This document shows, in pieces, positions 13,984 through 47,729 of a stretch of 64,000 nt of DNA. Below the pieces are notes generated by a model, which did not search any database, was not told the DNA's origin, and saw only the letters and a program-made list of their open reading frames with translations. This stretch comes from Geodermatophilus sp. DSM 44513. GTDB taxonomy: Bacteria > Actinomycetota > Actinomycetes > Mycobacteriales > Geodermatophilaceae. Each line of letters begins with the position of its first letter. Position 1 is the stretch's first letter. The DNA is taken from contig NZ_CP135963.1 of the NCBI RefSeq assembly GCF_032460525.1, forward strand, positions 3,162,001 to 3,226,000, read 5' to 3'. The position numbers and the translations under genes are program-made.

Positions 13984-14037
13984 CGGCCTCCAGGGCACCG
14001 CCCCGGGGCGTGCGAGGGGTGGGGAGGAGGGGGTCCT
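13984..14037 (-). repeat. Structured stop-proximal repeat, copy A (behind miaB)
   Basis: Read on the minus strand, AGGA begins 3 nt after the miaB TGA. Arm 1 (14026-14033) and arm 2 (13984-13991) pair at about five of eight positions. They enclose a 34-nt loop with the family core CCCCAC...CTCGC. An inner helix CCC-A-CCCC/GGGG-C-GGT is well formed. It occupies nearly all of the gap between convergent DUF349 and miaB genes, so it could act as a terminator for either. Confidence 0.6.
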
Positions 14038-14040
14038 CCC

Positions 14041-15531
14041 TCAGCAGCCGCCGACGGGGACGAGCGGCGGCGGGACGCCGATCCGCGGCATCCCGAGGGA
14101 GACGCCCGGCGTCGTCGGGCGGGTGCCGGCCTCGTGCGCGTCCCCGGCACGGGTGCGCCGGTGGGAGCGCAGCGGCCCGTCGGCGACGAGGAAGTGCGGC
14201 TTGGCGTCGGTCACGACCGTCTCGACGACGTCGCCGGGGCGGACGCCGTCGGACCCGGTGAAGTGCACCAGCCGGCCGTCACGGGCGCGGCCGGAGAGCC
14301 GGCCCGTCCGCGCGTCCTTGCTGCCCTCCCCCGCGGCGACCAGCAGCTCGACGGTGCGGCCGACCTGGGCGCGGTTCTCCGCCCAGCTGACCTCCTCCTG
14401 CAGCGCGGTCAGTCGCAGGTAGCGCTCCTGCACGACCTCCTTGGGCAGCTGGCCGTCCATCTCGGCGGCCGGCGTCCCGGGGCGCTTCGAGTACTGGAAG
14501 GTGAAGGCGCTCGCGAAGCGCGCCTGGCGCACCACCTCGAGGGTCTGGGCGAAGTCGGCCTCGGTCTCGCCGGGGAACCCGACGATGACGTCGGTGGTGA
14601 TCGCCGCGTCGGGCATGGCGGCCCGCACCCGGTCGATGATCCCGAGGTAGCGGTCCTGCCGGTAGCCGCGGCGCATCCGGCGCAGCACGTCGTCCGACCC
14701 GCTCTGCAGCGGCATGTGCAGCTGGGGGCAGACCGCCGGCGTCTCGGCCATCGCGGTGACGACGTCGTCGGTGAACTCCCGCGGGTGCGGGCTGGTGAAA
14801 CGCACCCGCTCCAGGCCCTCGATCGCACCCGTCGCGCGCAGCAGGCCGGCGAAGGCGCCCCGGTCGCGGAACTCCACGCCGTAGGCGTTGACGTTCTGCC
14901 CGAGCAGGGTCACCTCCAGCACGCCCTGGTCCACCAGCGCCTGCACCTCGGCGAGGACCTCGCCGGGCCGGCGGTCCCGCTCCTTGCCGCGCAGCGCCGG
15001 GACGATGCAGAACGTGCACGTGTTGTTGCACCCGACGCTGATCGACACCCAGCCGGAGGAGGCCGAGTCCCGCCTGGCCGGCAGGGTGGAGGGGAAGACC
15101 TCCAGCGCCTCGGCGATCTCCACCTGCGCCTCGGCGTTGTGCCGGGCGCGGGCGAGCAGGGCCGGCAGCGACCCGACGTTGTGCGTGCCGAAGACGACGT
15201 CCACCCACGGGGCGCGGCGCACGATGTCCCCGCGGTCCTTCTGCGCCAGGCACCCGCCGACCGCGATCTGCATGCCGGGGTGCGCGTCCTTGACCGGGCG
15301 CAGGTGGCCGAGGTTGCCGTACAGCCGGTTGTCGGCGTTCTCCCGCACCGCGCAGGTGTTCAGCACGACGACGTCGGCATCGGCACCCTCGGGGGCGGCG
15401 GTGTACCCGGCGGCCTCCAGCAGCCCGGACAGCCGCTCGGAGTCGTGCACGTTCATCTGGCAGCCGTAGGTGCGCACCCGGTAGGTGCGCGCGGGTGCGG
15501 TCCGGTCGGCGTCGCTGAGGTCGCTCGTCAT
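14041..15531 (-). CDS. miaB: tRNA-2-methylthio-N6-dimethylallyladenosine synthase
   Basis: A 496-residue radical-SAM methylthiotransferase that completes ms2i6A37 in tRNA after MiaA. The auxiliary 4Fe-4S cluster cysteines are C24, C60 and C94 ([22 protein letters not shown]). The radical-SAM cluster cysteines are C168, C172 and C175 (CNNTCTFC). A TRAM domain fills the region after about 385. The C-terminus is longer than usual by a Pro/Gly-rich tail of about 40 residues. ATG at 15531 has a TACCCT box 9 nt upstream. It is divergent from gluA. Confidence 0.97.
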
Positions 15532-15652
15532 GACGGGTCGAGGGTACGGCGACCCGAACGGGTGTCCCCCGGTCCACTGCACCCGGGCAGTCGTTACGCC
15601 TTCGTGATCGCGGGGCGCCGACACCGTTGCCGACCGCCTCTATGGTCTGCCG

Positions 15653-16408
15653 GTGACCACCCGCACCGCCGGAGAGCCTCTCGTCCGCCTGTCCGCGGTC
15701 GACAAGTGGTTCGGTGAGCTGCACGTCCTGCAGGACATCGACCTGTCCATCGACCGCGGCGAGGTGGTCGTCGTCATCGGCCCGTCCGGCTCGGGCAAGT
15801 CGACGCTGTGCCGCACGATCAACCGGCTGGAGCCCATCGACTCCGGCGAGATCACCATCGACGGCCAGCGGCTGCCCGACGAGGGCCGCGAGCTCGCCCG
15901 GCTGCGCGCCGACGTCGGCATGGTCTTCCAGAGCTTCAACCTGTTCGCGCACAAGACCGTGCTGGAGAACGTCACGCTGGGCCCGGTCAAGGTGCGCAAG
16001 CAGCCGAGGGCCGACGCCGAGCGGCGCGCCCGCGAGCTGCTGGACCGGGTGGGCGTCGGCAGCCAGGCCGACAAGTACCCCGCGCAGCTGTCCGGCGGCC
16101 AGCAGCAGCGGGTGGCCATCGCCCGCGCGCTGGCCATGGACCCCAAGGTCATGCTCTTCGACGAGCCGACCTCCGCCCTGGACCCGGAGATGATCAACGA
16201 GGTCCTGGACGTGATGACCTCGCTGGCCCGCGACGGCATGACGATGGTCGTCGTCACCCACGAGATGGGCTTCGCCCGCCGGGCGGCCAACCGGGTCGTG
16301 TTCATGGACGGCGGCCGGGTCGTCGAGTCCGCCGCCCCGGAGACCTTCTTCACGAACCCGCAGTCGGACCGGGCCAAGGACTTCCTCGCGAAGATCCTCA
16401 CCCACTGA
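15653..16408 (+). CDS. gluA: Glutamate-type ABC importer ATPase
   Basis: A 251-residue ATPase of the polar amino-acid uptake family. Walker [10 protein letters not shown] 43-51, Q-loop VFQSFNLF from 91, signature LSGGQ 146-150, Walker B VMLFDE 166-171. It is the first gene of a four-gene cluster in the order gluA-B-C-D known for glutamate uptake in Corynebacterium, and sits beside miaB and recX-recA as there. The GTG at 15653 lies 6 nt after a TATGGT box, so it is probably leaderless. Glutamate is the likely substrate by synteny; aspartate or glutamine are possible. Confidence 0.93.
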
Positions 16409-16429
16409 GCCCGCTAGAGAGGAACGCAC

Positions 16430-17320
16430 ATGCGCATCACCCGCTACGCCGCCACCCTGGGGGCGGCCGGTCTCGTGCTCACCGGCTGTGCCAGCGAGGC
16501 CGGCCAGCAGGCCGAGCAGGCCGCCTCGGCGGCCCCCGAGGTCGCCCAGGACGCGGAGTTCCCGGCCGGGACGACGATGGCCGAGCTCGCCGAGGCCGGC
16601 TCGATCACCGTCGGCACCAAGTTCGACCAGCCGGGGTTCGGCCTGGCCAACCCGCAGGGCGTGCCCGAGGGCTTCGACGTCGAGGTGGCCAAGATCATCG
16701 CCGGGGAGCTGGGCATCGCCCCCGAGGAGATCGAGTGGACCGAGACGGTGTCGGCCAACCGGGAGTCGTTCATCCAGAACGGTGACGTCGACATCGTCGT
16801 GGCCACCTACACGATCAACGACGCCCGCAAGCAGCTCATCGACTTCGCCGGGCCGTACTACGAGGCCGGCCAGGACATCATGGTCGCCACCGGCAACCCG
16901 CTGGCCATCGAGGGCCCCGACGACCTCGCGGGCAAGCGGGTCTGCTCGGTGGAGGGCTCGACCCCGGCGCAGAACATCCGGGACAACTACCCCGAGGCCC
17001 AGCTGACGCTGTTCGACGTGTACTCCAAGTGCGCCGACGCGCTGCGCAACGGCCAGGTCGACGCGGTCACCACCGACAACGTCATCCTCACCGGCCTGGT
17101 CCAGGGCGGGCAGGGCGCCTTCGAGCTGGTCGGCAACCCCTTCACCGAGGAGCCGTACGGCATCGGCCTCACCAAGGGCGACGACGAGTTCCGCGCGTTC
17201 ATCAACGACACGCTCGAGCAGGCCTACGAGGACGGCACCTGGGCCGAGGCCTGGGACCGCACCGCGGGTGCCATCACCGGCACGGAGGCCCCCGAGCCGC
17301 CCATGGTCGACCGCTACTGA
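16430..17320 (+). CDS. gluB: Glutamate-type solute-binding lipoprotein
   Basis: A 296-residue lipoprotein, the outside receptor of the importer. The signal peptide ends in lipobox VLTGC (Cys20), followed by a Gln/Ala/Glu linker and a bacterial extracellular binding-protein family 3 domain from about residue 58 (ITVGTKFDQPGFG; EWTETVSANRESFIQNGDVD region; CSVEGSTPAQNI). The start has a good AGAGAGGAA ribosome-binding site. A very strong hairpin at 17336-17371, 16 nt after the stop, separates it from the permease genes and probably makes this subunit more abundant than the others. Confidence 0.94.
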   Translation: MRITRYAATLGAAGLVLTGCASEAGQQAEQAASAAPEVAQDAEFPAGTTMAELAEAGSITVGTKFDQPGFGLANPQGVPEGFDVEVAKIIAGELGIAPEEIEWTETVSANRESFIQNGDVDIVVATYTINDARKQLIDFAGPYYEAGQDIMVATGNPLAIEGPDDLAGKRVCSVEGSTPAQNIRDNYPEAQLTLFDVYSKCADALRNGQVDAVTTDNVILTGLVQGGQGAFELVGNPFTEEPYGIGLTKGDDEFRAFINDTLEQAYEDGTWAEAWDRTAGAITGTEAPEPPMVDRY

Positions 17321-17335
17321 CCGACCGGATCTCCT

Positions 17336-17371
17336 GACGCCGCCGGGCGGGGCCTCCCGCCCGGCGGCGTC
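17336..17371 (+). terminator. Strong hairpin between gluB and gluC (partial terminator or mRNA stabiliser)
   Basis: A perfect 16-bp stem (17336-17351 with 17356-17371) closed by a 4-nt loop GCCT. No U-tract follows, which is common in high-GC actinobacteria. Its position inside the operon, right after the binding-protein gene, suggests reduced read-through into the permease genes or protection of the gluAB message 3' end. Confidence 0.8.
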
Positions 17372-17400
17372 TCGCCGTCCCGACCCGGAGAGGAGGCGCG

Positions 17401-18048
17401 GTGGACTTCGTCAGCGAGAACGCCGACCTGTTCGTCGACGCGTTCCTGGCCACCCTCGGCCTGTCGCTGCTGGCCGGCCTGCTGGCGCTGGCCCTCGGCA
17501 CGCTGCTCGCGGCGATGCGGGTCAGCCCCGTCCCGCCGCTGCGCGGGCTGGCCACCTTCTACGTCGAGACCTTCCGCAACACCCCGCTCACGGTGGTCTT
17601 CTTCTTCATCATCTTCGGGCTGCCGCAGATCGACTTCGTGATCGGCTTCTTCCCCGGCGCGGTGCTGTCGGTCGGGCTCTACACCGCGGCGTTCGTCTGC
17701 GAGGCGGTCCGCTCGGGGATCAACGCCGTGGCGGCCGGCCAGGCGGAGGCGGCCCGGGCGCTGGGGCTGACCTTCGGGCAGTCGCTGCGCGAGGTGGTCC
17801 TGCCGCAGGCGTTCCGGACCGTCGTCCCGCCGCTGGGCAACGTGCTCATCGCGATGGTGAAGAACACCTCCATCGCGGCCGGCTTCTCGGTCAGCGAGCT
17901 CAGCTCGCTGCTGCCCCGGCTGGTGAACGCGGACGCCGGCGACCTGACCTTGGTGCTGGTCGGCGTGGTCGTCGGCTACATGGTGATCACGCTGCCGTCC
18001 GCGCTGGCGGTCAACCGGATCGAGCGCCGGGTGGCGATCCTGCGATGA
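17401..18048 (+). CDS. gluC: Glutamate-type ABC importer permease 1
   Basis: A 215-residue integral membrane subunit with about five hydrophobic helices and the polar amino-acid permease signature (FRNTPLTVVFFF, then EAVRSGINAVAAGQAEAARALG as the EAA coupling loop around residues 101-122). The GTG start has GGAGAGGAGG just upstream. Its stop overlaps the gluD start (ATGA), so the two permeases are translationally coupled and should assemble as a heterodimer. Confidence 0.93.
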   Translation: MDFVSENADLFVDAFLATLGLSLLAGLLALALGTLLAAMRVSPVPPLRGLATFYVETFRNTPLTVVFFFIIFGLPQIDFVIGFFPGAVLSVGLYTAAFVCEAVRSGINAVAAGQAEAARALGLTFGQSLREVVLPQAFRTVVPPLGNVLIAMVKNTSIAAGFSVSELSSLLPRLVNADAGDLTLVLVGVVVGYMVITLPSALAVNRIERRVAILR

Positions 18049-18950
18049 GCGCACCGGTCCTGTTCGACCTGCCCGGCCCCCGGGCCCGCCGTCGGATCCG
18101 CCTCGCCACGGCGGTCGGCGCCCTCCTCGTCGCCGCACTCGTCGTCCTCGTCCTCGTCCGGCTGGCCGGCAACGGGCAGCTGGAGGCCCAGCGCTGGGCC
18201 GTCCTGTTCGATCCGGCCAGCCAGGTGCCGCAGGCGCTGGGCCAGGCCCTGCTGCGCACGCTGCAGGTCGCCCTCATCGGCATGGTGCTCGCCACCCTGC
18301 TGGGTCTGCTGCTCGCGGTCGGGCGGCTCTCGGAGCACCACTGGGTCCGGGTGGTCGTGTCGACGGTCATCGAGTTCTTCCGCGCGGTGCCCCTGCTGGT
18401 GCTGATCTTCGCGCTGTTCTTCCTGCTGCCGAAGTTCGGCATCCGGCTCACCGCGTTCTGGGCCCTCGTCGGCGGCCTGGTGCTCTACAACGGCGCGGTG
18501 CTCGGCGAGATCTTCCGCGCCGGCATCCTGTCGGTCGACCGCGGCCAGCGCGAGGCGGCCTACGGGCTGGGCATGCGCAAGACGCAGGTCATGACACTGG
18601 TGCTGCTCCCCCAGGCCACCCGGCGGATGCTCCCGGTGCTCATCGCCCAGCTCGTCGTCCTGCTCAAGGACACCTCGCTCGGCTTCATCATCAGCTTCCC
18701 GGAGCTGCTGCGCGGGGCCCGGGGCCTGGTGGAGTTCTTCACCCTGCAGTTCGGCAACCAGTACACGTTCCAGCTCTACGTCGCGGCGGCCGTCGTCTAC
18801 ATCGTGATCAACCTGCTGCTGTCCTGGCTGGCGCGCTACGCGGAGGGCCGGACGCGGCGCAGCGCCAAGACGGCGGCCACGACTCCGGCGGAGCTGCCCG
18901 CCGACGTGCAGATGGGCGGTGGCGGCGGCGCGGTCCCGGCCGGGCGGTGA
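18045..18950 (+). CDS. gluD: Glutamate-type ABC importer permease 2
   Basis: A 301-residue permease partner of GluC. Several hydrophobic helices follow a short cytoplasmic N-terminus. The family motif FFRAVPLLVLIF is near residue 105, and the coupling loop (GILSVDRGQREAAYGLGM) near 160-180. The C-terminus has a hydrophilic tail of about 40 residues ending in Gly/Ala. The ATG overlaps the gluC stop by four bases. It is the last gene of the cluster. Confidence 0.93.
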   Translation: MSAPVLFDLPGPRARRRIRLATAVGALLVAALVVLVLVRLAGNGQLEAQRWAVLFDPASQVPQALGQALLRTLQVALIGMVLATLLGLLLAVGRLSEHHWVRVVVSTVIEFFRAVPLLVLIFALFFLLPKFGIRLTAFWALVGGLVLYNGAVLGEIFRAGILSVDRGQREAAYGLGMRKTQVMTLVLLPQATRRMLPVLIAQLVVLLKDTSLGFIISFPELLRGARGLVEFFTLQFGNQYTFQLYVAAAVVYIVINLLLSWLARYAEGRTRRSAKTAATTPAELPADVQMGGGGGAVPAGR

Positions 18951-19023
18951 CGGCGGACGCCGGGTGGGGCGGGTGGGCCGCCCGGCGGTGCGGACCCGTG
19001 GCGGGTCTGCCGAGAACTGCGAC

Positions 19024-19437
19024 GTGGACACCGCCGTGCGCCCCGCCGTGCCCCCGCTCCCCCTGCACCGCCCTATAACCGCCGCGGACCCCGCCCAGGA
19101 GTTCGTGACCCGACTGCGCGCCTCCGCGTCGTGGCTGGCCGCGGCCGCGGGTGCGGAGTCCGCCGTCGTGCGCGAGGTCGTGCCGCCGGCCCGCCACCGG
19201 CGCTCCCGCTGCCGGGTGGTGCTCCGCTTCACCGGCCGGGAGGAGACCGACGTGACCTTCCTCGGCCCGGTGAGCTCGCTGACCGCCACGGCCGAGCGGG
19301 CCTTCGACCTGCAGATCCGGGCGTGGCTGGGAGCGGACCTGGGCCGGGAGGGGAGCTGGCTGGTGGCCGACGAGGAGGCCCCGGACGGCGTGGCCGTCGA
19401 CGTCACCGCCTGGTCGGCGACCGCGCGAACGGACTGA
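19024..19437 (+). CDS. Hypothetical protein between gluD and recX
   Basis: About 137 residues, no known family. High-GC third-codon positions run through the whole reading frame, supporting a real gene. The central part (RCRVVLRFTGREETDVTFLG) looks like alternating beta strands, followed by an amphipathic helix (SLTATAERAFDLQIRAWLG). No signal peptide or membrane helix is seen. The start is uncertain: GTG 19024 is used, but GTG 19105 has AGGAG just upstream and a TATAAC box near 19074. The 3' end converges on recX. Confidence 0.55.
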   Translation: MDTAVRPAVPPLPLHRPITAADPAQEFVTRLRASASWLAAAAGAESAVVREVVPPARHRRSRCRVVLRFTGREETDVTFLGPVSSLTATAERAFDLQIRAWLGADLGREGSWLVADEEAPDGVAVDVTAWSATARTD

Positions 19438-19498
19438 GGCCCGCGCACCCCGACCTGCCCGTCGCCGCGGGGACCCGCGGGCCGGCGCGGTGGGCCGG

Positions 19499-20221
19499 TC
19501 AGGGCAGCCAGGCGTCCAGGCCGGGCCCCCCGGACGCACCGGGTGGGGCGGCGTCCGCCCCGGTGCGGTCGTCGTCGGAGCGGTCGTCGTCGGAGCGGTC
19601 ATCGCCGGAGCGGTCGTCGTCGGAGCGGTCGTCGTCCAGCGCCTCGCGGACCACCCAGCTGGCCAGTCCGCCGCCGTAGCCGCGGCGCGCGAGCATGCCC
19701 ACCAGCCGGCGTTCGGCGGTGGCGCGGTCGACCCGACGCATGCCGGGCAGCCGGCGCTGCACCAGGCGGCGGGCGGCGTCCCACTCGTCCTGGTCGTCGA
19801 CCAGGGTGACCGCCTCCTCGGCGACCTCCCCGTCGACGCCCTTGGCGCGCAGCTCCGCCTTGAGGACGCGTCGCGCCAGGCCGCGTCCGGACTGACGCGA
19901 GGTCACCCAGGCCCGGGCGAAGGCGGCGTCGTCGATCAGCCCGACCTCGCCGAACCGGTCGAGGACGGACTCGGCGACGTCGTCGGGGATCCCGCGCCTG
20001 GCCAGCAGCTCGGCCAGCTGCTGGCGGGTCCTGGCCGCACCGGTCAGCGCCCGCAGACAGATCGACCGGGCGACCTGCGCGGGGTCGCCGGGGTCGTCCT
20101 GTGCGGAGCCACCGGCCGGCGGGGCGGCGTCCGGAGCGTCCGGGTCAGGGCATGGACCGGGTCGCCGCCCGCGGCGGCGTCCGGCAGCGGGACGCTCCCC
20201 GGCCTGGGGCCAGCCGCTCAC
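19499..20221 (-). CDS. recX: Regulatory protein RecX with acidic repeat tail
   Basis: A 240-residue modulator of RecA filaments. Residues of about 50-195 carry the three-helix RecX repeats (ALTGAARTRQQLAELLARRG, then DDAAFARAWVTSRQSGRG and RRGYGGGLASWVVREAL). The N-terminal 45 residues are Pro/Ala/Arg-rich. The C-terminal tail holds five Asp/Arg/Ser pentapeptides encoded by a 15-bp tandem repeat, ending GLDAWLP. The GTG start is 2 nt after the recA stop, so recA and recX are one transcript. Confidence 0.93.
   Translation of the reverse strand: MSGWPQAGERPAAGRRRGRRPGPCPDPDAPDAAPPAGGSAQDDPGDPAQVARSICLRALTGAARTRQQLAELLARRGIPDDVAESVLDRFGEVGLIDDAAFARAWVTSRQSGRGLARRVLKAELRAKGVDGEVAEEAVTLVDDQDEWDAARRLVQRRLPGMRRVDRATAERRLVGMLARRGYGGGLASWVVREALDDDRSDDDRSGDDRSDDDRSDDDRTGADAAPPGASGGPGLDAWLP
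19561..19635. repeat. Five tandem 15-bp repeats in the 3' end of recX
   Basis: Five adjoining 15-mers, consensus CGGAGCGGTCGTCGT, at 19561, 19576, 19591, 19606 and 19621. They keep frame and encode DDDRS/GDDRS units. This is a likely length-variable minisatellite. Confidence 0.85.
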
Positions 20222-20223
20222 CG

Positions 20224-21267
20224 TCAGAAGTCGGCCGGCTCGGCGGCGGCAGCGGCGGCCGTGGCGTCGACCTGCGGCCCGATGCCCAGCTTCTCCTTGA
20301 CCTTCTTCTCGATCTCGTCGGCGAGGTCGGGGTTGTCCCGGAGGAAGGTGCGGACGTTCTCCTTGCCCTGGCCGAGCTGGTCGCCCTCGTAGGTGTACCA
20401 GGCGCCGGACTTGCGGATGAAGCCCTGCTCGACGCCGGCGTCGATCAGCCCGCCCTCGCGGCTGAAGCCGTGGCCCCACAGCAGGTCCAGCTCGGCCTGC
20501 TTGAACGGGGCGGCGACCTTGTTCTTCACGACCTTCACGCGGACCCGGCTGCCGACCGCGTCGGTGCCCTGCTTGAGCGTCTCGATGCGCCGGACGTCGA
20601 GGCGGACCGACGAGTAGAACTTCAGCGCGCGGCCACCGGTGGTGACCTCCGGGGAGCCGTAGACGACACCCACCTTCTCGCGCAGCTGGTTGATGAAGAT
20701 CGCGGTGGTGCCGGAGTTGTTCAGCGCACCGGTGATCTTGCGCAGCGCCTGGCTCATCAGCCGGGCCTGCAGGCCGACGTGGCTGTCGCCCATCTCGCCC
20801 TCGATCTCCGCGCGCGGCACGAGGGCGGCGACGGAGTCGATGACGATGATGTCCAGCGCGCCGGAGCGGATCAGCATGTCGGCGATCTCCAGCGCCTGCT
20901 CACCGGTGTCGGGCTGGCTGACCAGCAGGGCGTCGGTGTCGACGCCGATCGCCCGGGCGTACTCCGGGTCCAGCGCGTGCTCGGCGTCGATGAACGCCGC
21001 GATGCCGCCGGCGGCCTGCGCGTTGGCCACCGCGTGCAGGGCGACCGTCGTCTTGCCGGAGGCCTCGGGGCCGTACACCTCGACGACCCGGCCGCGCGGC
21101 AGGCCACCGATGCCGAGGGCGATGTCGAGGGCGATCGAGCCGGTGGGGATGACCTTCATGGCCACCTCGGGGCTGTCACCCAGCCGCATCACCGAGCCCT
21201 TGCCGAACTGCTTGTCGATCTGGGCGAGGGCCATGTCGAGGGCCTTGTCGCGGTCGAGCGTTGCCAT
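20224..21267 (-). CDS. recA: Recombinase RecA
   Basis: A 347-residue strand-exchange ATPase and co-protease of the SOS response. Walker [10 protein letters not shown] at 66-74; the conserved MRLGD and PTGSIALD blocks lie upstream, and the filament/LexA-contact regions are intact. There is no intein, unlike M. tuberculosis recA. ATG at 21267 is chosen because GAAGGTG lies 6 nt upstream; a GTG nine bases earlier has worse spacing. Two promoter signals lie upstream: a PafBC-type motif at 21324-21346 and a LexA box at 21412-21425. Confidence 0.98.
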
Positions 21268-21323
21268 GGTGCTCACCTTCGGGACGTCGCGGGTGCAGTG
21301 TGGGGTCGAGCGGGTCGGTGCCG

Positions 21324-21346
21324 ACGCTAGAGCGGGGATCTGACAC
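21324..21346 (-). promoter_or_regulatory. recA proximal promoter, RecA-NDp/PafBC type
   Basis: On the minus strand: GTGTCAGAT, 8 nt, then TAGCGT. This matches the actinobacterial LexA-independent DNA-damage promoter pattern (TTGTCRGTG-N8-TAnnnT) that PafBC activates, except at the ends of the first block. Transcription would start about 50 nt before the recA ATG. Confidence 0.7.
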
Positions 21347-21402
21347 TTCCGGAGGATCGGCCGACCTGTGGAACGACGCCCGGCCTGTGGACTGCGCGAC
21401 CC

Positions 21403-21425
21403 AATCTAGCCCGAACACGTGTTCG
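21403..21425 (-). promoter_or_regulatory. LexA SOS box with adjoining -10 element, distal recA promoter
   Basis: CGAACACGTGTTCG (21412-21425) is a perfect palindrome matching the actinobacterial SOS box CGAAC-N4-GTTCG. A TAGATT -10 element (minus strand, 21403-21408) follows 3 nt downstream, so bound LexA would cover the promoter. It is the only such box seen in the window. Confidence 0.88.
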
Positions 21426-21455
21426 ACTGCCAGCGTGACACGCCGCTCCCGCTGC

Positions 21456-21650
21456 TCAGCGCTCCCTGCTGGGCACGTCGTACTCCTCGCAGATCGCCAG
21501 CCACACCCGGCGCACCGGCAGGCCGGCCTCGATCGCCTCGACGGCGGTCCGCCCGCCGAGGGCGGAGAACACGTGGTCGCGGGCGACGGTCTCCCCGCGC
21601 AGGGGCCCAAACTGCTCGGCGAGCCGGGACCAGAACTCCTGCAGGCGCAC
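21456..21650 (-). CDS. DUF3046 small protein
   Basis: A 64-residue protein matching the DUF3046 family found just upstream of recA in many actinobacteria (the Rv2738c position). Sequence features: FWSRLAEQFGP, then DHVFSALGGRTAVEAIEAG and VWLAICEEYDVP. The role is unknown, with no cysteines or membrane segment. The GTG start lies 7 nt after a TAGCGT box, so it is probably leaderless. The family's constant link to recA-recX hints at a part in DNA repair, but that is inference. Confidence 0.88.
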   Translation of the reverse strand: MRLQEFWSRLAEQFGPLRGETVARDHVFSALGGRTAVEAIEAGLPVRRVWLAICEEYDVPSRER

Positions 21651-21705
21651 GCTCCCGACGCTAGCGCGCGCACCGGGGCGGCCCGCCGGCTCCTACGCTG
21701 GGCCG

Positions 21706-21813
21706 GTGATCGGCACCGGCTCGGCCACCCTGGACCTCGTCCTCGAGATCGGCATCGCGCTGGCCCTGCTGGCCTCCCTCGTGCTGCTCTGGCGCAACTA
21801 CCGGGGGCGCTGA
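21706..21813 (+). CDS. 35-residue single-span membrane peptide
   Basis: A short gene: GTG at 21706, TGA at 21811-21813. The peptide starts VIGTGSATLDL, then has one hydrophobic helix (about residues 9-28, with ALALLASLVLLW) and ends with the basic RNYRGR, so the C-terminus should be cytoplasmic. A TACGCT box lies 6 nt before the GTG, the leaderless arrangement used by many genes here. The last 16 bases overlap the 3' end of the convergent MFS gene. No family is recognised. Third codon positions are nearly all G or C. Confidence 0.6.
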   Translation: MIGTGSATLDLVLEIGIALALLASLVLLWRNYRGR

Positions 21814-23075
21814 GCCGCTCCCGGGCCGGTCGGCGCCCCGGTGCGCGCCCACACCACCAGCAGCGGGACGACCAGCGCGGCCGACACGACCGCCACCAGC
21901 CCGTAGCCGCCGAGGGCGAGCAGCGGGCCGCCGACCACCCCGGCCAGCGCGGCCCCCAGGCCCATCAGCAGGTCGCTGCCGCCCTGCGCGGCCGGCCGCT
22001 GCGCCTCCCCGACCGCCTCGGTGACCAGCGTGGACCCTGCGATGAGCCCGCAGGACCAGCCCAGCCCGAGCAGCAACAGCCCCGCGCCCAGCTGCACCGC
22101 GTCCCGGGGGGCCGCCGTCCCCGCCAGCGCGGCCGCCACCAGCAGCAGGCCGGCGCCCAGGGCGACCGTGGCCCGGCGCCCCGCCCGGTCGGCCAGCAGC
22201 CCGACCAGCGGGGAGAACAGGTACATGCCCGCGACGTGCACGCTGATGACCAGGCCGATGACGCGCAGCTCGGTGCCGCCGTCGTGCCCCATGTGCACCG
22301 GGGTCATGACCATGACGCCGACCATCACCGCGTGGGAGACCACCACCGCGGTCAGGCCCAGCCGGCCGCGCGGGTCGGCCCACACCGCGCGGACGGCGGC
22401 CGAGGTGGCCCGCCGCGGCCGGCCGGCGTCCGCCCCGGCCCCCCGCAGCCGGCGGGCGAGCAGCAGCGGGTCCGGGCGCAGCAGGGCAAGCAGGCCGAGC
22501 GCCACCACGGCGAACACGGCGACGGAGATGGCGTAGGCGCCGGTGAGCGGCGGCAGCCCGAGGGCGGTGCCGAGGACCTCGCCGGGGCCGGCCAGGTTGG
22601 GCCCGAGGACCGACCCGACGGTGGTGGCCCACACGACCAGGGACAGTGCCCGGCCGCGGTGCTCGGGCAGCGCGAGGTCGGCCGCGGCGTAGCGCGCCTG
22701 CAGCCCGCAGGCGGTGGCCGCCCCGAAGGCGAACAGGCCCACCAGCAGCAGCGGCAGGGAGGAGACCACCGCGGCGACGAGCGTCAGCAGGCACCCGAGG
22801 ACGGCGATCGCGTATCCGGCGGCCAGCCCGGCCCGCCGGCCGGCGCGGTCGCTGACGCGGGCCAGCGGGACGGCGAGGACGGCGGCGCCGAGCACGCCGG
22901 CCGTCTGGCCGAGACCGGCCGCGGTGTCGGTGCCGGCCACGTCGCGGGCCAGCAGGCCGCCGACGGTGATGCCGACGGTCACCCCCAGCCCGGCCAGGGC
23001 CACCGCGCCGCCGAGGACGCCGACGGTCCGGCGCTGGACGAGGGCGGGGTCGTGGACCCGGGTCTGCGCGGTCAC
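21798..23075 (-). CDS. MFS transporter
   Basis: A 425-residue membrane protein with about 12 hydrophobic segments. The loop between helices 2 and 3 has the MFS motif (VPLARVSDRAGRRAGLAAG), repeated in the second half as PLVGLLADRAGRRATVALG, showing the two six-helix halves. The cargo is unknown; the general look is of a drug or metabolite exporter. The GTG start is 12 nt behind the acyl-CoA dehydrogenase stop, so both are likely one transcript. Confidence 0.9.
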   Translation of the reverse strand: MTAQTRVHDPALVQRRTVGVLGGAVALAGLGVTVGITVGGLLARDVAGTDTAAGLGQTAGVLGAAVLAVPLARVSDRAGRRAGLAAGYAIAVLGCLLTLVAAVVSSLPLLLVGLFAFGAATACGLQARYAAADLALPEHRGRALSLVVWATTVGSVLGPNLAGPGEVLGTALGLPPLTGAYAISVAVFAVVALGLLALLRPDPLLLARRLRGAGADAGRPRRATSAAVRAVWADPRGRLGLTAVVVSHAVMVGVMVMTPVHMGHDGGTELRVIGLVISVHVAGMYLFSPLVGLLADRAGRRATVALGAGLLLVAAALAGTAAPRDAVQLGAGLLLLGLGWSCGLIAGSTLVTEAVGEAQRPAAQGGSDLLMGLGAALAGVVGGPLLALGGYGLVAVVSAALVVPLLVVWARTGAPTGPGAAQRPR

Positions 23076-23087
23076 GGCCGGGCGCCC

Positions 23088-24254: not shown

Positions 24255-24322
24255 ACCACGCCCCGCACCCGCGGGTGATCACGGGCCAGCGGAGTGTCGT
24301 ACCCCTGTGGACACTGGGAGCC

Positions 24323-29679: not shown

Positions 29680-30534
29680 GTGCCCGAGGGAGACACCGTC
29701 TGGTTGGCGGCCAAGCGGATGGACACCGCCCTGAGCGGTGCCACGCTGCGCCGCGGGGAGCTGCGGGTACCCCAGTTGGCGGCCACCGACCTCGCCGGGC
29801 GCACCGTCTCCGCGGTGGTCCCCCGGGGCAAGCACATGCTCACCCGGTTCACCGACGGCTGGACGCTGCGCACCCACTACCGGATGGACGGCAGCTGGCA
29901 CATCTACCGGCCGGGCACCCGCTGGCACGGCGGCCCGGCCTTCAGCGTCCGCGCCGTCCTCGCCACCGACGACTGGGAGTGCGTCGGGTACCGGCTGCAC
30001 GACGTGGCGATGGTGCGCACCGAGTACGAGGACACCCTCGTCGGGCACCTCGGCCCCGACGTCCTCGGCCCCGACTGGGACTTCGAGGAGGCCGTGCGCC
30101 GGCTGCGCGCACACCCCGACGAGCAGGTCGGCGCGGCGGTCCTCGACCAGCGCAACCTGTGCGGGCCCGGCAACCTCTACAAGGTCGAGGGCCTGTTCGT
30201 GTGCGGCGTGCACCCGTGGATGCGGGTCGCCGACGTCGAGGACCTCCCTGGCCTGGTCGACCGGACCCGGGCGCTCATGCTGGCCAACCGGGACCGGCCC
30301 GAGCAGAGCACGACCGGTGACCTGCGCCGCGGCCGGGACCACTGGGTCTACGGCCGCAAGGACCGCCCGTGCTACCGCTGCGGCACGCGGATCCTGCGCG
30401 GCGACCAGGGCCCGGATCTGCAGGAGCGGATCACCTACTGGTGCCCGCGCTGCCAGGCCACCGACGCCCCGGTCGACCCCGCCGCCCGCACCGGCGAACC
30501 CGACCACCCACCGCCGCTGGCAAACGCCCACTGA
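29680..30534 (+). CDS. nei2: Fpg/Nei-family DNA glycosylase (Nei2-like)
   Basis: A 284-residue base-excision repair enzyme that removes oxidised bases and cuts the strand. After removal of the start residue, the N-terminal Pro2-Glu3 (VPEGDTVW) supplies the catalytic nucleophile. The helix-two-turn-helix region has DQRNLCGPGNLYKVEGLF. A zinc finger is formed by C231, C234, C255 and C258 (CYRC, then CPRC). GTG at 29680 lies 6 nt after GACACT, so probably leaderless. It sits near lhr as in mycobacteria. A structured repeat begins 4 nt after its stop. Confidence 0.93.
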   Translation: MPEGDTVWLAAKRMDTALSGATLRRGELRVPQLAATDLAGRTVSAVVPRGKHMLTRFTDGWTLRTHYRMDGSWHIYRPGTRWHGGPAFSVRAVLATDDWECVGYRLHDVAMVRTEYEDTLVGHLGPDVLGPDWDFEEAVRRLRAHPDEQVGAAVLDQRNLCGPGNLYKVEGLFVCGVHPWMRVADVEDLPGLVDRTRALMLANRDRPEQSTTGDLRRGRDHWVYGRKDRPCYRCGTRILRGDQGPDLQERITYWCPRCQATDAPVDPAARTGEPDHPPPLANAH

Positions 30535-30537: not shown

Positions 30538-30605
30538 AGGACCTCCCTGCCCCCCACACCTCGCTCCGCTCGGCGCGGGCCCCTGCAGGGACGCCGCTCC
30601 AGCAC
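30538..30605 (+). repeat. Structured stop-proximal repeat, copy B (behind nei2)
   Basis: AGGA begins 3 nt after the nei2 TGA. Arm 1 CCTCCCTGC (30542-30550) and arm 2 GCAGGGACG (30585-30593) pair at eight of nine positions around a 34-nt loop with CCCCCAC, CTCGC, GCTCG and CGGGCCCCT. The conserved tail CCGCTCCAGCAC follows. Confidence 0.75.
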
Positions 30606-38660: not shown

Positions 38661-38765
38661 GAGGGACTCCCGAGGTCCGTGACCGCAGCCGACACCCTGA
38701 TGGCGGTGCCGGACCGTCACCCTCCCATGCCGGACGCGTCCGGCCCGCAGTCGTCCCCGGCCGGT

Positions 38766-38973
38766 CGAGCGGCCCCTCCTGCAGGGTCCCGCCGCGAGCT
38801 CGGGTGACGTGCTGGAACGGCCCCCTCCTGCAGGGTCCCGCCGCGAGCTCGCGAGCGGTGGGGGGCGAGGGCGGCCCCGTCCAGGGCACCGCCCCGAGCC
38901 GGTGACGTGCTGGAACGGCCCCCTCGCAGGGTCCCGCCGCGAGCTCGCGAGCGGTGGGGGGCGAGGGGGTCCT
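38766..38973 (-). repeat. Structured stop-proximal repeat array, copy C (behind clgR-like gene)
   Basis: The region 38661-38976 has no gene and mostly consists of this array. Copy C1 (38901-38973) begins with AGGA 3 nt after the TGA. Its arms CCCCCTCGC (38961-38969) and GCGAGGGGG (38919-38927) pair perfectly at nine positions around a 33-nt loop, with tail CCGTTCCAGCACGTCACC. A right-half copy (to about 38872), a second full but mispaired copy (about 38803-38871, same tail) and another half copy (38766-38802) follow. Confidence 0.82.
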
Positions 38974-38976
38974 TCC

Positions 38977-39378: not shown

Positions 39379-39519
39379 CGCCGTCTCCTGTCCTGCCTGT
39401 GCGGGGCGGCGGCACCCGGGGTGCCGTGCGCTCACGGTACGCGGCGCCGATGACGATCACCGGACGACGCCGGATGCGTCCGCTGACGGCGTAACACCGC
39501 AGGCCGCCGGCCCCTTCCG

Positions 39520-39638
39520 GGTGAGGGACCGCAACGGCCCCCCTGCAGGGGCCCGCCGCGAGCCTGGTGACGTACTGGAACGGCCGCCCTCCAGGGGCCC
39601 GCGCCGAGCTTGCGAGGCGTGGGGAGGAGGGTGGTCCT
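39520..39638 (-). repeat. Structured stop-proximal repeat, copy D (behind pgsA)
   Basis: AGGA begins 3 nt after the pgsA TGA. Arms CCACCCTCC (39626-39634) and GGAGGGCGG (39584-39592) pair at eight of nine positions around a 33-nt loop. An inner helix CCC-A-CGCC/GGCG-C-GGG forms. Tail CCGTTCCAGTACGTCACC (39566-39583), then a right-half copy (39520-39565) with a variant tail. Confidence 0.78.
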
Positions 39639-39641
39639 CCT

Positions 39642-40295
39642 TCAGGCGGCGGGCTCGGTCCTCGGTCCGCCGGCCGCGCGGCGGGCGGCGGCGGCGCGCG
39701 CGGCCCGGATGCTGGTGCGCCGCAGCGTGAGGGCGCGGTGGACGTAGTCCAGACCGGTCACCACGGTGAGCACCACAGCAGCGGCCATGACCCACCAGCG
39801 GGCGGTCCCGAACAGGCCGTCCAGCGGGAGGGTGTACATCCCGATGGCCAGGGCCTGGACGACGGTCTTGGCCTTGCCACCCCGGCTGGCCGCGATCACC
39901 CCGTGGCGGAGCACCCAGAAGCGCAGCACCGTCACCCCGACCTCGCGGACGACGATGGTGAGCGTCACCCACCAGGGCAGCAGGGCCAGCACCGACAGCC
40001 CGACGAGCGCGGTACCGGTCAGCGCCTTGTCGGCGATCGGGTCGGCGAGCTTGCCGAACTCGGTGACCTGACCGGTGCGCCGGGCGATCATGCCGTCGTA
40101 GCGGTCGGTGATGATGGCCAGCGCGAACGCGAGGGTGGCCCAGTAGCGCAGGCCGTCGTCGGTCCCGCCGTCGGCGAGCAGCAGGGCGGCGAAGACGGGC
40201 ACCAGGGCCAGCCGCACGAGGGTGAGCGCGTTGGGCAGGTTGAGCAGCCGCGCCGACCGGGGCGGCGTGGCGGCCGGGTCCGCCGGAGGGGTCAT
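39642..40295 (-). CDS. pgsA: CDP-alcohol phosphatidyltransferase (PgsA type)
   Basis: A 217-residue membrane enzyme that joins a CDP-diacylglycerol to an alcohol acceptor such as glycerol-3-phosphate. The full CDP-alcohol motif is present: D64, D67, G68, A71, R72, G81, D85, D89 (in [10 protein letters not shown] and [10 protein letters not shown]). Several hydrophobic helices surround it. The ATG overlaps the rimO stop by four bases (ATGA). Phosphatidylglycerophosphate synthase is most likely from the rimO-pgsA-clgR gene order; a related acceptor cannot be excluded. Confidence 0.92.
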
Positions 40296-41734
40296 GCGCG
40301 CACCGCGGGAACGAGTGCTGAGGTGACCAGTGTGGTGGCCACGAGGTCCACGCCCTCGGTGGCGACGACCTGGGCGGCGACCAGCTCGCCGGCGACCGCG
40401 CCCGCCGGCACGCCGGTGACCGTCGTCGTCCCGTCGGCCTCGGGGTCCTGGTGGGCGGCGTGGCCGGCCCAGACCCCGGGGGCCTCGTCGGCGGAGAGGT
40501 CCTCGGTGAGCAGCACCTCGACCCGGTCGCCGAGGCGGTCCTCGGCGCGCTGCGCGGTCAGCTCCTCGACCAGGTCGGTGACCCGCCGGACGCGGGCGTC
40601 GATCTCGGCCTGGTCGAGCTTGCCGGGCAGGCCCATCGCCTCGGTGCCCTCCTCGTCGGAGTAGCCGAACACGCCGACGGCGTCCAGGCGGCCCTCGACG
40701 AGGAAGCGCTCGAGCTCGGCGACGTCGTCCTCGGTCTCCCCGGGGAAGCCGAGGATGACGTTGGTGCGGAAGCCGGCCGCCGGCGCCAGTGCCCGCGCGC
40801 GCCCGATCAGCGCGAGGAAGTCCTCGGTGCCACCGAAGCGGCGCATCCGGCGCAGCAGCCCCGGCGAGGAGTGCTGGAAGGACAGGTCGAAGTAGGGCGC
40901 GACCCCGTCGGTCCCGGCGATGACCTCCACCAGGCCCGGGCGCAGCTCGGCCGGCTGCAGGTAGGCCACCCGCACCCGGACGACGCCCTCGACGGCGGCC
41001 AGCTGGGGCAGCAGCCGCTCGAGCAGCCGCAGGTCGCCGAGGTCCTTGCCGTAGGAGGTGGAGTTCTCGCTGACCAGGACCAGCTCGGTGACGCCCTGGG
41101 AGGCCAGCCACTGCGCCTCGCCGAGCACCTCGGCCGGCGGGCGGGAGACGAACGAGCCGCGGAAGGCCGGGATGGCGCAGAAGGCGCACCGCCGGTCGCA
41201 GCCGGAGGCGAGCTTGAGGGCGGCCGAGGGACCCGAGGCCAGCCGGCGGCGCTGCAGCCAGCCGTGCCCGGGGATCGCGGGGGCGTCCGCCGCGGTGACG
41301 GCGGCGGTGCGCTGCGCCGGGCTGATCGGCAGCAGGGTGCGCCGGTCGCGGGGGTCGTGCGGGACGAGCGGGCGGCCGGTGAGCACGTCGTCGAGCCGGT
41401 CACCGATCGCGGTGTAGTCGTCGAAGCCGAGCACCGTCGCCTCGGGCAGCGCGCCGGCCAGCTCGGAGCCGTACCGCTCGGCCATGCAGCCGACCGCGAC
41501 CACCCGGGCGCCGGAGTCGGTGGCGGCCAGGATGGCGTCGACGGAGTCCTTCTTCGCCGACTCGATGAAGCCGCAGGTGTTCACCAGGACGGCGTCCGCG
41601 CCCTCGGCATCCTCCACCAGCCGGTACCCGCCGGAGGCCAGCCGGCCGGCCAGCTCCTCGGAGTCGACCTCGTTGCGGGCACACCCGAGGGTCACCACCG
41701 CCACGGTGCGGGCAGGGTCGGGCGCACGTGTCAC
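40292..41734 (-). CDS. rimO: Ribosomal protein S12 methylthiotransferase RimO
   Basis: A 480-residue radical-SAM enzyme that methylthiolates the conserved aspartate of ribosomal protein S12. The auxiliary cluster cysteines are C18, C54 and C83; the radical-SAM cysteines are C179, C183 and C186 (CDRRCAFC). A C-terminal TRAM domain follows about 390. It is a paralogue of MiaB, also in this window. The [15 protein letters not shown] start and position beside pgsA and ftsK support RimO rather than MiaB. GTG at 41734 lies 7 nt after TACGAT, so it is leaderless. Confidence 0.95.
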
Positions 41735-41749
41735 CCGGCCGATCGTAGT

Positions 41750-41797
41750 GGCCTCCCGCGGGGGACCGCGCCGAGCGGGCGAGGGTGGGAGGAGGCC
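41750..41797 (-). repeat. Structured stop-proximal repeat, copy E (behind ftsK)
   Basis: A short form starting 2 nt after the ftsK TGA: arms GGCCTCC (41791-41797) and GGAGGCC (41750-41756) pair perfectly at seven positions around a 34-nt loop containing CCCTCGCCCGCTCGGCGCGG. It ends 3 bp from the rimO -10 box, so it fills the whole gap. It lacks AGGA and the long tail. Confidence 0.65.
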
Positions 41798-41799
41798 GG

Positions 41800-44316
<2,517 letters not shown>

Positions 44317-44390
44317 GTGCCGACGGTAGACGCCCGGCCCGCACGGCGACGGCAGGCGCGCAGCCCGTGTCCGGCACCTACGGTCGGGCC

Positions 44391-46358
44391 GTGCCCGAAC
44401 ACGACTCCCTCCCGTACGGCAGCTGGCCGACCCCCGTCACCTCCGAGCTCGTCGTCCGCGCCGCCGCACGCCTGGCCGAGGTCTGCGTCGACGGGGAGGA
44501 CGTCTGGTGGTCCGAGTCCCGCCCCGCCGAGGCGGGGCGCTCGGCGATCGTGCGCCGGAGCGCCGACGGCACGACCGCCGACGTCCTGCCACCGCCCTGG
44601 AACGCCCGGACGCGCGTCCACGAGTACGGCGGTGGGTCCTGGACGGTGGCCGACGGCGTCCTGTGGTTCACGGACTTCGCCGACCAGCGGCTCTACCGGC
44701 TCGCCCCCGGCGACGGCGGCCCGGTCGCGGTCACGCCGGAGCCCGCGGTGCCCGCCGGCGTCCGGCACGCGGACTTCTCCCCGCTGCCCGACGGGGCCGT
44801 CCTGGCGGTGCGCGAGACGCACACGGCGAGCGGCGCGGCGGCCGAGGTGGTCAACGAGGTCGTCCGCGTCGAGCCGGACGGGTCGACGACCGTGCTGGTC
44901 AGCGGCCCGGACTTCGTGTCCGACCCGCGGATGGCACCGGACGGCGTCACGCTCTGCTGGCTGCAGTGGGACCACCCGCACATGCCGTGGGACGCCGCGC
45001 AGCTCGTCGTCCGGGCCGCCGACGGGAGCGAGCAGGTGGTCGCGGGCGGGCCCGGCGAGTCGGTGGTGCGGCCGGTGTGGGGCGAGGACCTGGCGCTGTG
45101 GTGGCTGGACGACCGCACCGACGTCTGGTCGCTGTACCGCCGCCGGCCGCACGGCGGGGCGGAGCTCGTGCTCGACGTCGGCAGCGACATCGCCGGACCG
45201 CAGTGGGTCTTCGGGCAGAGCCGGTACGCGCTGCTGGCCGACGGCCGGGTCGCCCTCGCCTACGGCCGGGAGGGCGCCGACCGGCTGGCCGTGCTCGAGC
45301 CCGGCGGCGACCTGCGCGAGCTGGACCTGCCCCACGCGGCCTACGCCCAGGTCCGGGCGCAGGGCACGTCGGTGGTCTGCGTGGCCGGCGGGCCGGACGC
45401 CGAGCCGGTGGTGCTGCGGGTCGGGGTCGACGGCGGGGTCGACGGCGGCGGGAGCGAGGTACTCCGGCCGGCCCGCGACCTGGGGCTGGACCCGGCCTGG
45501 TTCTCCCGGCCGGAGCACGTGACCTTCCCCACCCCGGACGCCGGCACCGGCGTCTCCGAGGCGCACGCGCTGGTCTACCCGCCGACCAACCCGCAGGCGA
45601 CCGCGCCGGAGGGCGACCTGCCGCCGCTGCTCGTGGTCGTCCACGGCGGGCCGACGTCGGCAGCGCGTGCGGTCCTCGAGCTGGGCGTCCAGTACTGGAC
45701 CTCCCGCGGCTTCTGCGTCGCCGACGTCGACTACCGCGGGTCCACCGGCTACGGGCGCCGGCACCGCGACGCGCTCCAGGGCCGGTGGGGCCAGGTCGAC
45801 CTCGACGACGTCATCGCCTGCGCGCGCCACCTCGCCGACGCCGGCCGCGTCGACCCGGCGCGGATGGCGATCCGGGGCGGCTCGGCCGGCGGCTACACCA
45901 CGCTGGCCGCGCTGAGCATGCGCCCGGGCACCTTCACGGCGGGCGCCAGCCACTTCGGCGTCGCGGACCTCGGCGCCCTGGCCGAGGAGACGCACAAGTT
46001 CGAGTCCCGCTACCTCGACGGCCTGGTCGCCCCCTGGCCGGAGGGCCGGGCGGTCTACGACGAGCGGTCACCGATCAACCACGTCGACGCCCTCGACACC
46101 CCGCTGGCGGTCTTCCAGGGCGACGAGGACCGCGTCGTGCCGCCCGAGCAGGCGGAGGTGGTCGTCGCGGCGCTGGGCGCCCGGGGCGTGCCGCACGCGT
46201 ACCTGCTGTTCCCCGGCGAGCAGCACGGGTTCCGCAGGGCCGAGAACATCCGCGCCGCCCTGGACGGCGAGCTGTCCTTCTACGCCCAGGTGTGGGGGTT
46301 CGCCCTGCCGGCGGAGGAGGGCATCGCACCGATCGAGGTGGTGCGCCCCGCCGGGTGA
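44391..46358 (+). CDS. S9-family prolyl oligopeptidase-like peptidase
   Basis: A 655-residue serine peptidase. The N-terminal part (about 30-390) is a beta-propeller that filters substrates. The alpha/beta-hydrolase part has the nucleophile Ser498 in GGSAGGY, Asp580 in GDEDRVV and His612 in EQHGF. No signal peptide is present, so it is cytoplasmic, probably cleaving short peptides. GTG at 44391 lies 6 nt after TACGGT (leaderless). It is divergent from ftsK. Confidence 0.92.
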
Positions 46359-46423
46359 GTGGTGAACACGACCGCCGGCACGGCCGTACCCCCAGTGACG
46401 GGGTGTGGGACGGGAGGAGCCGG

Positions 46424-46960
46424 ATGGCGCGTCACCTGAGGCCGCTGGGCGGGGCGGAGCTCGACGTCCGTGCCGCCTACGCCGCGCACGGCCCGGAGCT
46501 GTACCGGTTCGCGCTGCGCCAGCTCGGCGACGGTGGCGCCGCGCAGGACGTCGTCCAGGAGGTGTTCCTGCGGGCGTGGCGCTCGGCGGGCGCCTACGAC
46601 CCGCAGCTGGCCAGCCTGCGCACCTGGCTGTTCGCGATCGCCCGGAACGTCGTGGTCGACGAGGCGCGTCGCTTCGCCGTCCGGCCGTGGCAGCGCACCC
46701 TGACGGAGGTCACCGACGACGACACCCCCGCCGTGGGGGGGATCGACGAGGCAGTCGTGGACGCCTGGGTGGTGGAGGAGGCGCTGCGCCGGATCGGGGA
46801 GGAGCACCGGACGGCGATCGTGCAGACCCACCTGCGCGGCCGGCCGCACGCCGAGGTGGCCGCCGAGTTCGGGATACCGGTCGGGACGCTGCGCAGCCGG
46901 GTGTTCTACGGCCTCAAGGCACTGCGGCTGGCGATGGAGGAGATGGGGGTGGAACCGTGA
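46424..46960 (+). CDS. ECF-family RNA polymerase sigma factor
   Basis: A 178-residue sigma factor. Region 2 covers about 20-88 (YRFALRQLGDGGAAQDVVQEVFLRAWR with the DVVQEVF -10-binding helix); region 4 covers about 118-170 (HRTAIVQTHLRGRPHAEVAAEFG, GTLRSRVFYGLKALR). It belongs to the SigK/SigL-like class by look. ATG at 46424 has GGGAGGAG 6 nt upstream. Its stop overlaps the anti-sigma start by four bases, the usual pairing that keeps the sigma factor inactive until a signal arrives. Confidence 0.94.
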   Translation: MARHLRPLGGAELDVRAAYAAHGPELYRFALRQLGDGGAAQDVVQEVFLRAWRSAGAYDPQLASLRTWLFAIARNVVVDEARRFAVRPWQRTLTEVTDDDTPAVGGIDEAVVDAWVVEEALRRIGEEHRTAIVQTHLRGRPHAEVAAEFGIPVGTLRSRVFYGLKALRLAMEEMGVEP

Positions 46961-47622
46961 CCGATCAGGGAGAGCACCGCAGGGTGCGCGAGCAGCTGGG
47001 CTGGTACGCCCTCGGGCACGGGACGCCGGAGGAGCGGGCCGGCGTCCGCGCGCACCTGGACGGGTGCGCCGCCTGCCGCGCGGAGTTGGCCGAGCTGGCC
47101 CCGCTGCCGGCCTGGCTGGCGCGGGTGGACCCCGACCGGCTCGACGAGCAGCAGCCGGCGCCGCCGGCCGGGCTCGGCGACGCGGTGCTGGCCCGGATCG
47201 CCGCGGAGAGCGCCGCGGTCCGGAACCGGCCGTCCCGGCGGGTGCTGGCCGCGGCGGCCGCCGTGGGCGTCGCGGCGGCCGGCTTCGGCGTCGGGTGGCT
47301 GGTGCGGCCGGTGCCGCCGCAGCCGCCGCTGGAGCCGGTCGCGGTCGAGGTCGCCACGACCGACATCCAGGCGACCGCGAACGTCATCCCGCACACCTGG
47401 GGCGTGGAGGTGCGGCTGGTCGGCGAGGGCTTCACGGCCGGCGCGGTCTACGAGGTCGTGGTGACCGACGAGGACGGCACGGCGGTCCCGGCGGGGCAGT
47501 TCCTCGGCATCGGCCCGGGCGAGCTGAGCTGCAACCTCAACTCCTCGGTGCTGCGCGAGGACGCCACCGGCTTCGAGGTGCTCGCCGCCGACGGCACGGT
47601 GGTGGCCAGCTCACAGCTGTGA
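46957..47622 (+). CDS. Zinc-finger anti-sigma factor with one membrane helix
   Basis: A 221-residue partner of the upstream sigma factor. The ZAS motif HLDGCAAC (H33, C37, C40) lies in the N-terminal cytoplasmic part, followed by a helix across the membrane (about 96-116) and an outside beta-rich domain (118-221; VRLVGEGFTAGAVYEVVVTD). The outer domain has the look of the Rv0736/RslA-type anti-sigma sensor. GTG overlaps the sigma stop (GTGA). The stimulus is unknown; a zinc-dependent redox signal is plausible from the cysteines. Confidence 0.9.
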   Translation: MTDQGEHRRVREQLGWYALGHGTPEERAGVRAHLDGCAACRAELAELAPLPAWLARVDPDRLDEQQPAPPAGLGDAVLARIAAESAAVRNRPSRRVLAAAAAVGVAAAGFGVGWLVRPVPPQPPLEPVAVEVATTDIQATANVIPHTWGVEVRLVGEGFTAGAVYEVVVTDEDGTAVPAGQFLGIGPGELSCNLNSSVLREDATGFEVLAADGTVVASSQL

Positions 47623-47634
47623 CGCGAGGACTCT

Positions 47635-47651
47635 GCGGTCCTCCGGACCGC
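47635..47651 (+). terminator. Hairpin behind the anti-sigma gene
   Basis: A 7-bp perfect stem, GCGGTCC-TCC-GGACCGC, 12 nt after the stop. It lies upstream of structured repeat copy F, so the two may act together as a terminator. Confidence 0.5.
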
Positions 47652-47671
47652 ACCGCGGCCAGGTGCCCAGG

Positions 47672-47729
47672 AGGACCTCGGTGCCCCCCACGCCTCGCGA
47701 GCTCGACCCGGGCCCCTGCACCGAGGCCG
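47672..47729 (+). repeat. Structured stop-proximal repeat, copy F (behind the anti-sigma gene)
   Basis: AGGA (47672-47675), arms CCTCGGTGC (47676-47684) and GCACCGAGG (47718-47726) pairing perfectly at nine positions, 33-nt loop with CCCCCACGCCTCGC and CGGGCCCCT, then CCG. The arm sequence differs at most positions from copy C yet pairs fully. It lies 49 nt after the stop, further than the other copies. Confidence 0.78.

Follow-up and report, generated by a model that had tools for sequence, protein, structure and literature searches.

The mycobacterial interspersed repetitive units (MIRUs) are intergenic repeats of actinobacteria that form tandem arrays and insert at DTGA stop sites, and the intrinsic terminators of actinobacteria, including TRIT, are sequence-conserved hairpins at gene ends that have been found with covariance models. 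Miniature inverted-repeat transposable elements (MITEs) and hairpins derived from IS200-IS605 elements are non-autonomous, hairpin-ended and inserted 3' of a short motif, and integron attC sites are imperfect hairpins with a bulged base that stand just behind stop codons in a cassette array. Here we describe a hairpin repeat from a 64,000-nt stretch of Geodermatophilus sp. DSM 44513 (the window, positions 3162001-3226000 of a 4.63-Mb genome in a single contig), in which a sequence-only reading had reported six copies, A to F, behind stop codons. It is a lineage-specific, high-copy hairpin of the kind represented by MITEs and repetitive extragenic palindromes (REPs), for which no REP-associated tyrosine transposase (RAYT) was detected, and it is unusual in its anchoring to stop codons, its nesting within itself and the way in which occupants of a given site are exchanged. 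Searches of open-access papers, in one case among the best 10 of 194 matches (none on Geodermatophilus or Modestobacter), gave no description of the repeat; passages of PMC9686282 deal with CRISPR. A search of the window against Rfam at gathering scores left it unmatched and returned only three rRNA matches.

Like the REP and REPIN elements associated with RAYTs, the repeat is high-copy, extragenic and hairpin-forming: 58 copies were found in a systematic sample of 40 evenly spaced 20-kb stretches (800 kb) of the genome, only one of them in a weak gene call. It differs from REPs in its core of about 58 nt, as opposed to the 20-40 bp given for REPs in a published abstract, and in its fixed distance behind stops; moreover, no Y1 transposase was found in 23 genomes. 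According to passages of PMC3733652, GTAG REPs often touch stop codons and CGTC REPs lack a dedicated transposase; because of the latter, a missing RAYT neither excludes the repeat from REPs in the wide sense nor makes it new on its own. In the repeat, GTAG is not fixed at the hairpin base (flank profile of 97 copies) and stands only at some copies near rimO. MIRUs share with it the tandem arrays, the association with TGA sites and the status of an actinobacterial intergenic repeat. MIRUs are not known as covarying hairpins, whereas the repeat is one, and 39 of its 58 sampled copies stand behind stops (TGA 31, TAG 5, TAA 3), convergent gene ends included. MITEs are likewise short, non-coding and dispersed, with complementary ends and a link to targets 3' of a short motif; unlike MITEs and IS200-IS605 derivatives, the repeat has no parent element that could be found, and no Y1_Tnp was detected in the same 23 genomes. 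As in attC sites, the hairpin is imperfect, has a bulged base and closely follows stops, but its copies are scattered behind chromosomal genes instead of forming a cassette array. With the terminators for which passages of PMC3526491 use the name TRIT, it has in common a sequence-conserved hairpin at gene ends; unlike them, it occurs inside ribosomal-protein operons and has no T-tract.

The core reads AGGACC, arm, CCCCCAC, N4, TCGCNNGCTC, N4', CGGG, NCCCTG, arm', GGCC and then G or A, and it folds into a hairpin in which an internal loop lies between a long outer stem and an inner stem. Across 47 aligned copies, 95.9% of the cells in the two helices are paired, compared with 81.9% in shuffles, and 111 double changes are seen compared with 30; 10 of the 17 pairs have changed on both sides. 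When one strand is slid by 1-3 columns, pairing falls to 46.0-51.9%. A second set of 71 matches from relatives, whose alignment was fitted to the model, gives 94.2% against 78.5% paired and 161 against 46 double changes. Both helices of the structured, covarying repeat that had been proposed are thus supported, and neither an absence of copies from relatives nor pairing at the level of shuffled controls was observed. One position departs from regular pairing: an inner A.C mismatch is present in 43 of 55 strict copies of the own genome and in 37 of the 42 others. On the complementary strand it would be a G.T, and as DNA that strand is slightly more stable in 82 of the 97 copies. This hints at a role for the complementary DNA strand, a hint that is only suggestive because the inner A.C cells are common to subfamilies.

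The family does exist, and it extends well beyond the six copies first described. A model (R1) was built from aligned copies, with B, C, D and F in the training set and A and E outside it, and was applied to the sample at a cut-off of at least 28 bits; the 58 matches extrapolate to about 330-336 copies per genome, tandem and nested copies counted in. In the same genome, blastn with copy C gave at least 50 matches (40 of 269 candidates scored), and a TGANNNAGGACC pattern occurs 218 times compared with 20 for the reversed pattern. Searching related genomes with a model, as had been suggested, revealed many further copies: R1 matches occur in 34 of 37 Geodermatophilaceae genomes, comprising all 26 of the same genus (own included) and 8 of 11 from other genera, and the three genomes without a match are fragmented drafts, one of them only 79% complete. 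Copy number varies within one genus, with at least 5, 53 and 74 copies in three genomes (G028, G069 and G062, respectively), counts that are saturated because whole-genome scans scored at most 150 candidates per genome. Around pgsA, the repeat is present at 41 of 80 loci (78 from Geodermatophilaceae and two from Streptomycetaceae). Outside the family, none of 24 genomes from other families of the order has a match, and in a class-wide sample of 197 genomes matches were confined to the own genome and a single weak one in another family (37.3 bits, 89 nt behind a gene, L350), which was treated as chance. Carriage by plasmids or phages was considered and rejected, as one 58-nt copy found no match in plasmid records and one 73-nt copy none in phage records. 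A second repeated hairpin, with arms GGTCCT(G/C)GCTCAC and GTGAGC(C/G)AGGACC, was noticed at G000:C1 9519-9552, 53877-53910 and 895854-895887 (L033, L036), and it is matched by the TGANNNAGGACC pattern on both strands.

With gene ends called by a codon-usage gene caller made for this analysis, the offset of the 39 anchored copies from a same-strand stop lies between -1 and 4 nt, and in 24 of them it is exactly 3 nt. Random non-coding placement gives a mean of 0.66 such copies and a maximum of 4 in 2000 draws. The stops used compare with 647 TGA, 89 TAG and 10 TAA among 746 stops, and stop-codon identity as a DNA target was rejected, there being no preference for TGA. In the 97 strict copies, AGGACC is for the most part preceded by GA. 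The other 19 sampled copies comprise 10 further behind a same-strand gene, 8 that follow a gene of the opposite strand on its start side, and the one in the weak gene call. It had been claimed that copies always point in the direction of the upstream gene; this does not hold for the eight on the start side, nor for the ftsK-rimO gap, where a reversed copy is found at 11 of 76 relatives' loci spanning that gap. The AGGACC end of these reversed copies stands a few bases from TAG, the complement of a CTA(C/G)GAT box before rimO that we take to be a -10 element. For three own copies (L205, L273 and L285), the distance to the start of a gene that points away is 17-19 nt. Because of these and the reversed copies near rimO, the anchor is mainly, not solely, the stop codon.

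Some copies are identical to or nested in others. Among 20 strong copies picked from the best scores of genome G014, five share the same 58 nt and a further two match each other exactly, with unrelated surroundings. One of the five stands behind a stop, two (L257 and L258) lie clearly inside another copy and a further one (L259) does so less clearly. Nested copies also occur at L254, L262 and L263 of G014, at L213, L216 and L273 of the own genome and at the pgsA loci L168 and L124, and at another pgsA locus (L184) the inner copy is reversed. In the cases from the own genome and in those from G014 other than L259, the host copy is split by the inner one and both of its halves are still there. 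A head-to-tail array of roughly 50-nt hairpin units without the AGGA leader lies at L216 11441-11755, and repeats of the element's right half are found as well. Tails of the form GTTCCAGNNCNTCNCC number 69 in the own genome, and no gene-bearing form of a longer autonomous element ending in such a tail was seen among the tails behind GGCC in fetched loci, the only ones read; one located elsewhere would be missed. At L119 (about 8350-8500), an unrelated short insert stands in the loop of a copy with ACAGG on both sides, resembling a possible target duplication.

The occupants of a given site also often differ. The pgsA and rplK regions supplied 102 copies, among which 39 pairs were classed as orthologous by flanks at least 90% (left) and at least 75% (right) alike; 6 pairs carry similar elements and 33 differ, 31 of these at less than 88% identity and two in length only. 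The loci L294 and L295 have an identical copy at one site and different copies at another site of the same operon. Within the six similar pairs, 120 paired positions show no compensated change, four changes to G.U (two changes of L192 being counted twice) and one broken pair, and 228 unpaired positions show 14 changes. The earlier argument that compensatory changes imply selection on structure should therefore be read with caution: the covariation is real, but occupants differ as a whole and no compensated change is seen in the similar pairs. Since orthologous sites often differ wholesale in this way, pairing could be preserved because only certain copies spread, and not because it serves a function at the site.

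These observations suggest that the repeat is probably a miniature, protein-less mobile element of Geodermatophilaceae. A miniature mobile hairpin is indicated by identical 58-mers in unrelated places, nested copies, differing orthologous occupants and reversed copies at a promoter, and also by the uneven copy number within one genus and the restriction to one family. An enzyme would recognise the folded strand, with the result that only hairpin-competent copies would spread, and would insert the element either 3' of short T-purine-purine sites or within copies already present; selection would remove insertions in coding sequence. Some copies might, less certainly, be tolerated or used as hairpins between cotranscribed genes. 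A more specific proposal, which we regard as tentative and on balance doubtful, is that the hairpin moves by a non-Y1 single-strand mechanism aimed at stop codons and at the loops of copies of itself that arrived earlier. In that case, gene ends would be lasting docking sites with repeatedly exchanged occupants, yielding self-renewing intercistronic hairpins, including those in ribosomal-protein operons.

Several points weigh against mobility. No mobilising enzyme was found, the search having covered Y1 transposases in the own and 23 same-genus genomes; no convincing clean empty site was found among the loci listed, and no target duplication was seen by eye around fetched copies. When nested copies were counted automatically, the totals did not clearly exceed those obtained after shuffling the flanks (6 of 64 against a mean of 2.5 and a maximum of 8; 6 of 20 against 3.0 and 6; 4 of 66 against 3.8 and 10), and nesting thus rests on the reading of split sequences. 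DNA-target specificity alone does not explain the use of TGA, TAG and TAA near genomic proportions. The orthologous pairs are not independent observations, in that the rplK region contributes 29 of the 33 that differ, and they carry no control for ordinary non-coding divergence. Finally, covariation is seen among 12 orthologous nusG-rplK copies (18 double changes, compared with 6 in shuffles), which would follow from whole-unit exchange or from slow compensation in place.

The last result bears on an alternative that we consider unlikely, namely that the repeat is a host-selected mRNA hairpin behind stops, which protects upstream mRNA from 3' decay or uncouples the translation of neighbours and has spread because it is useful. 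The strong sense-strand anchor behind stops would fit such a role, as would the position of copies behind nusG, rplK, rplA and rpoA and between rpsM and rpsK (genes confirmed by Pfam), and the sense copy between nusG and rplK at 13 of 30 loci fetched (from 54 genomes with rplK). An RNA role between genes is possible. However, identical and nested copies are not accounted for, the rpsM-rpsK copy is present at only 3 of 30 loci fetched (of 55 genomes), and the 18 sampled copies in non-coding sequence away from stops lack a clear orientation (10 against 8). The outer stem shows no excess of G.U over A.C (22 against 27 cells in three fitted alignments), and the lack of compensated changes in the six similar pairs, although the numbers are small, points the same way. 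A terminator role, one of those first proposed, would require an unusual terminator without a U-tract and is hardly credible. The hairpin is GC-rich and close behind stops, and of the 37 stop-anchored copies for which a next gene was called, 15 lie between convergent genes that are close together; yet in 9 of the 37 a gene on the same strand begins within 60 nt, no TTT occurs in the 12 nt behind any of the 58 sampled copies, and copies stand within operons, behind nusG, rplK, rpsM and rpoA. An ordinary terminator was rejected because of the missing T-tract and the copies within nusG-rplK-rplA and rpsM-rpsK.

It is also quite improbable that the repeat is a REP moved by a RAYT transposase that was missed or recently lost. 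High copy number and the hairpin are as expected for such an element, stop codons are likewise touched by the GTAG REPs in passages of PMC3733652, and some copies at the rimO promoter are preceded by GTAG. A search for the transposase domain itself (PF01797, Y1_Tnp), which within the family covered this genus and among transposases the Y1 type, detected it neither in the own genome nor in 23 copy-bearing genomes of the same genus; as a control, it was found in 5 of 14 known genomes, and the other 14 genomes searched along with those of the genus, from other families, included two with a match. Thus, a mobile REP-like element is the best supported of the four roles suggested from the sequence, and the linked RAYT that was suggested with it did not appear. 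For the mobile element that we favour, signs of recent spread without a Y1 transposase and starts no more than 4 bases from stops in two thirds of the sample point to an undescribed mobilising activity, which is testable in culturable bacteria. The repeat also offers a practical way to mark gene ends in genomes of Geodermatophilaceae, and provides a natural experiment on the effect of a hairpin directly behind a stop codon inside essential operons.

Within the window, five of the six reported copies match R1, at 35.5-83.2 bits. Copy A (13984..14037, minus strand), which is outside the training set, is a weaker copy (35.5 bits, E 1.3e-5) that begins 3 nt behind the stop of a miaB-like gene and ends 3 nt from the stop of a convergent gene. 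Copy B (30538..30596, plus strand, 68.4 bits) stands 3 nt behind the stop of an Fpg/Nei gene called at 29680-30534. At copy C, a first full unit (38916..38973, minus strand, 83.2 bits) lies 3 nt behind the stop of an HTH gene and is followed on the same strand by an array, read from the sequence, of TTCCAGCACGTCACC tails and right-half units (38766..38915), within which a second full unit is found at 38818..38877 (50.9 bits). Copy D (39581..39638, minus strand, 77.9 bits) begins 3 nt behind the pgsA stop, and its tail with one right-half unit, likewise read from the sequence, extends over 39520..39580 on that strand. Among named sequences, the closest to this pgsA comes from G. pulveris (95%). 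Copy E (41750..41797, minus strand), 2 nt behind the ftsK stop, is a doubtful member, either a weak relative or a chance hairpin, as its score of 17.6 bits is not significant (E 0.14). Copy F (47672..47729, plus strand, 72.9 bits) lies 49 nt behind the stop of a zf-HC2 gene. Placement directly behind stops, as first described, therefore applies to A-D but not to F, and AGGACC starts exactly 3 nt behind TGA in all four, as had been noted for AGGA. The names given to the upstream genes agree with their Pfam domains (UPF0004/Radical_SAM, Fapy_DNA_glyco, HTH, CDP-OH_P_transf, FtsK and zf-HC2).

Some further features were noticed alongside the repeat. In the rpsM-rpsK gap, most other loci have a different hairpin, judged by eye, with a CCCGTGAGGGCGGG-like core and variable arms (e.g., L321, L324 and L336). 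In the rplK-rplA gap (L290-L319), many genomes share a conserved GTGGGAGGGCC...GGCCCG...ACCAC stretch ahead of rplA, which may be the leader of a ribosomal-protein gene. The window itself also contains a complete rRNA operon (16S, 23S and 5S) at 54890-60258 on the minus strand.

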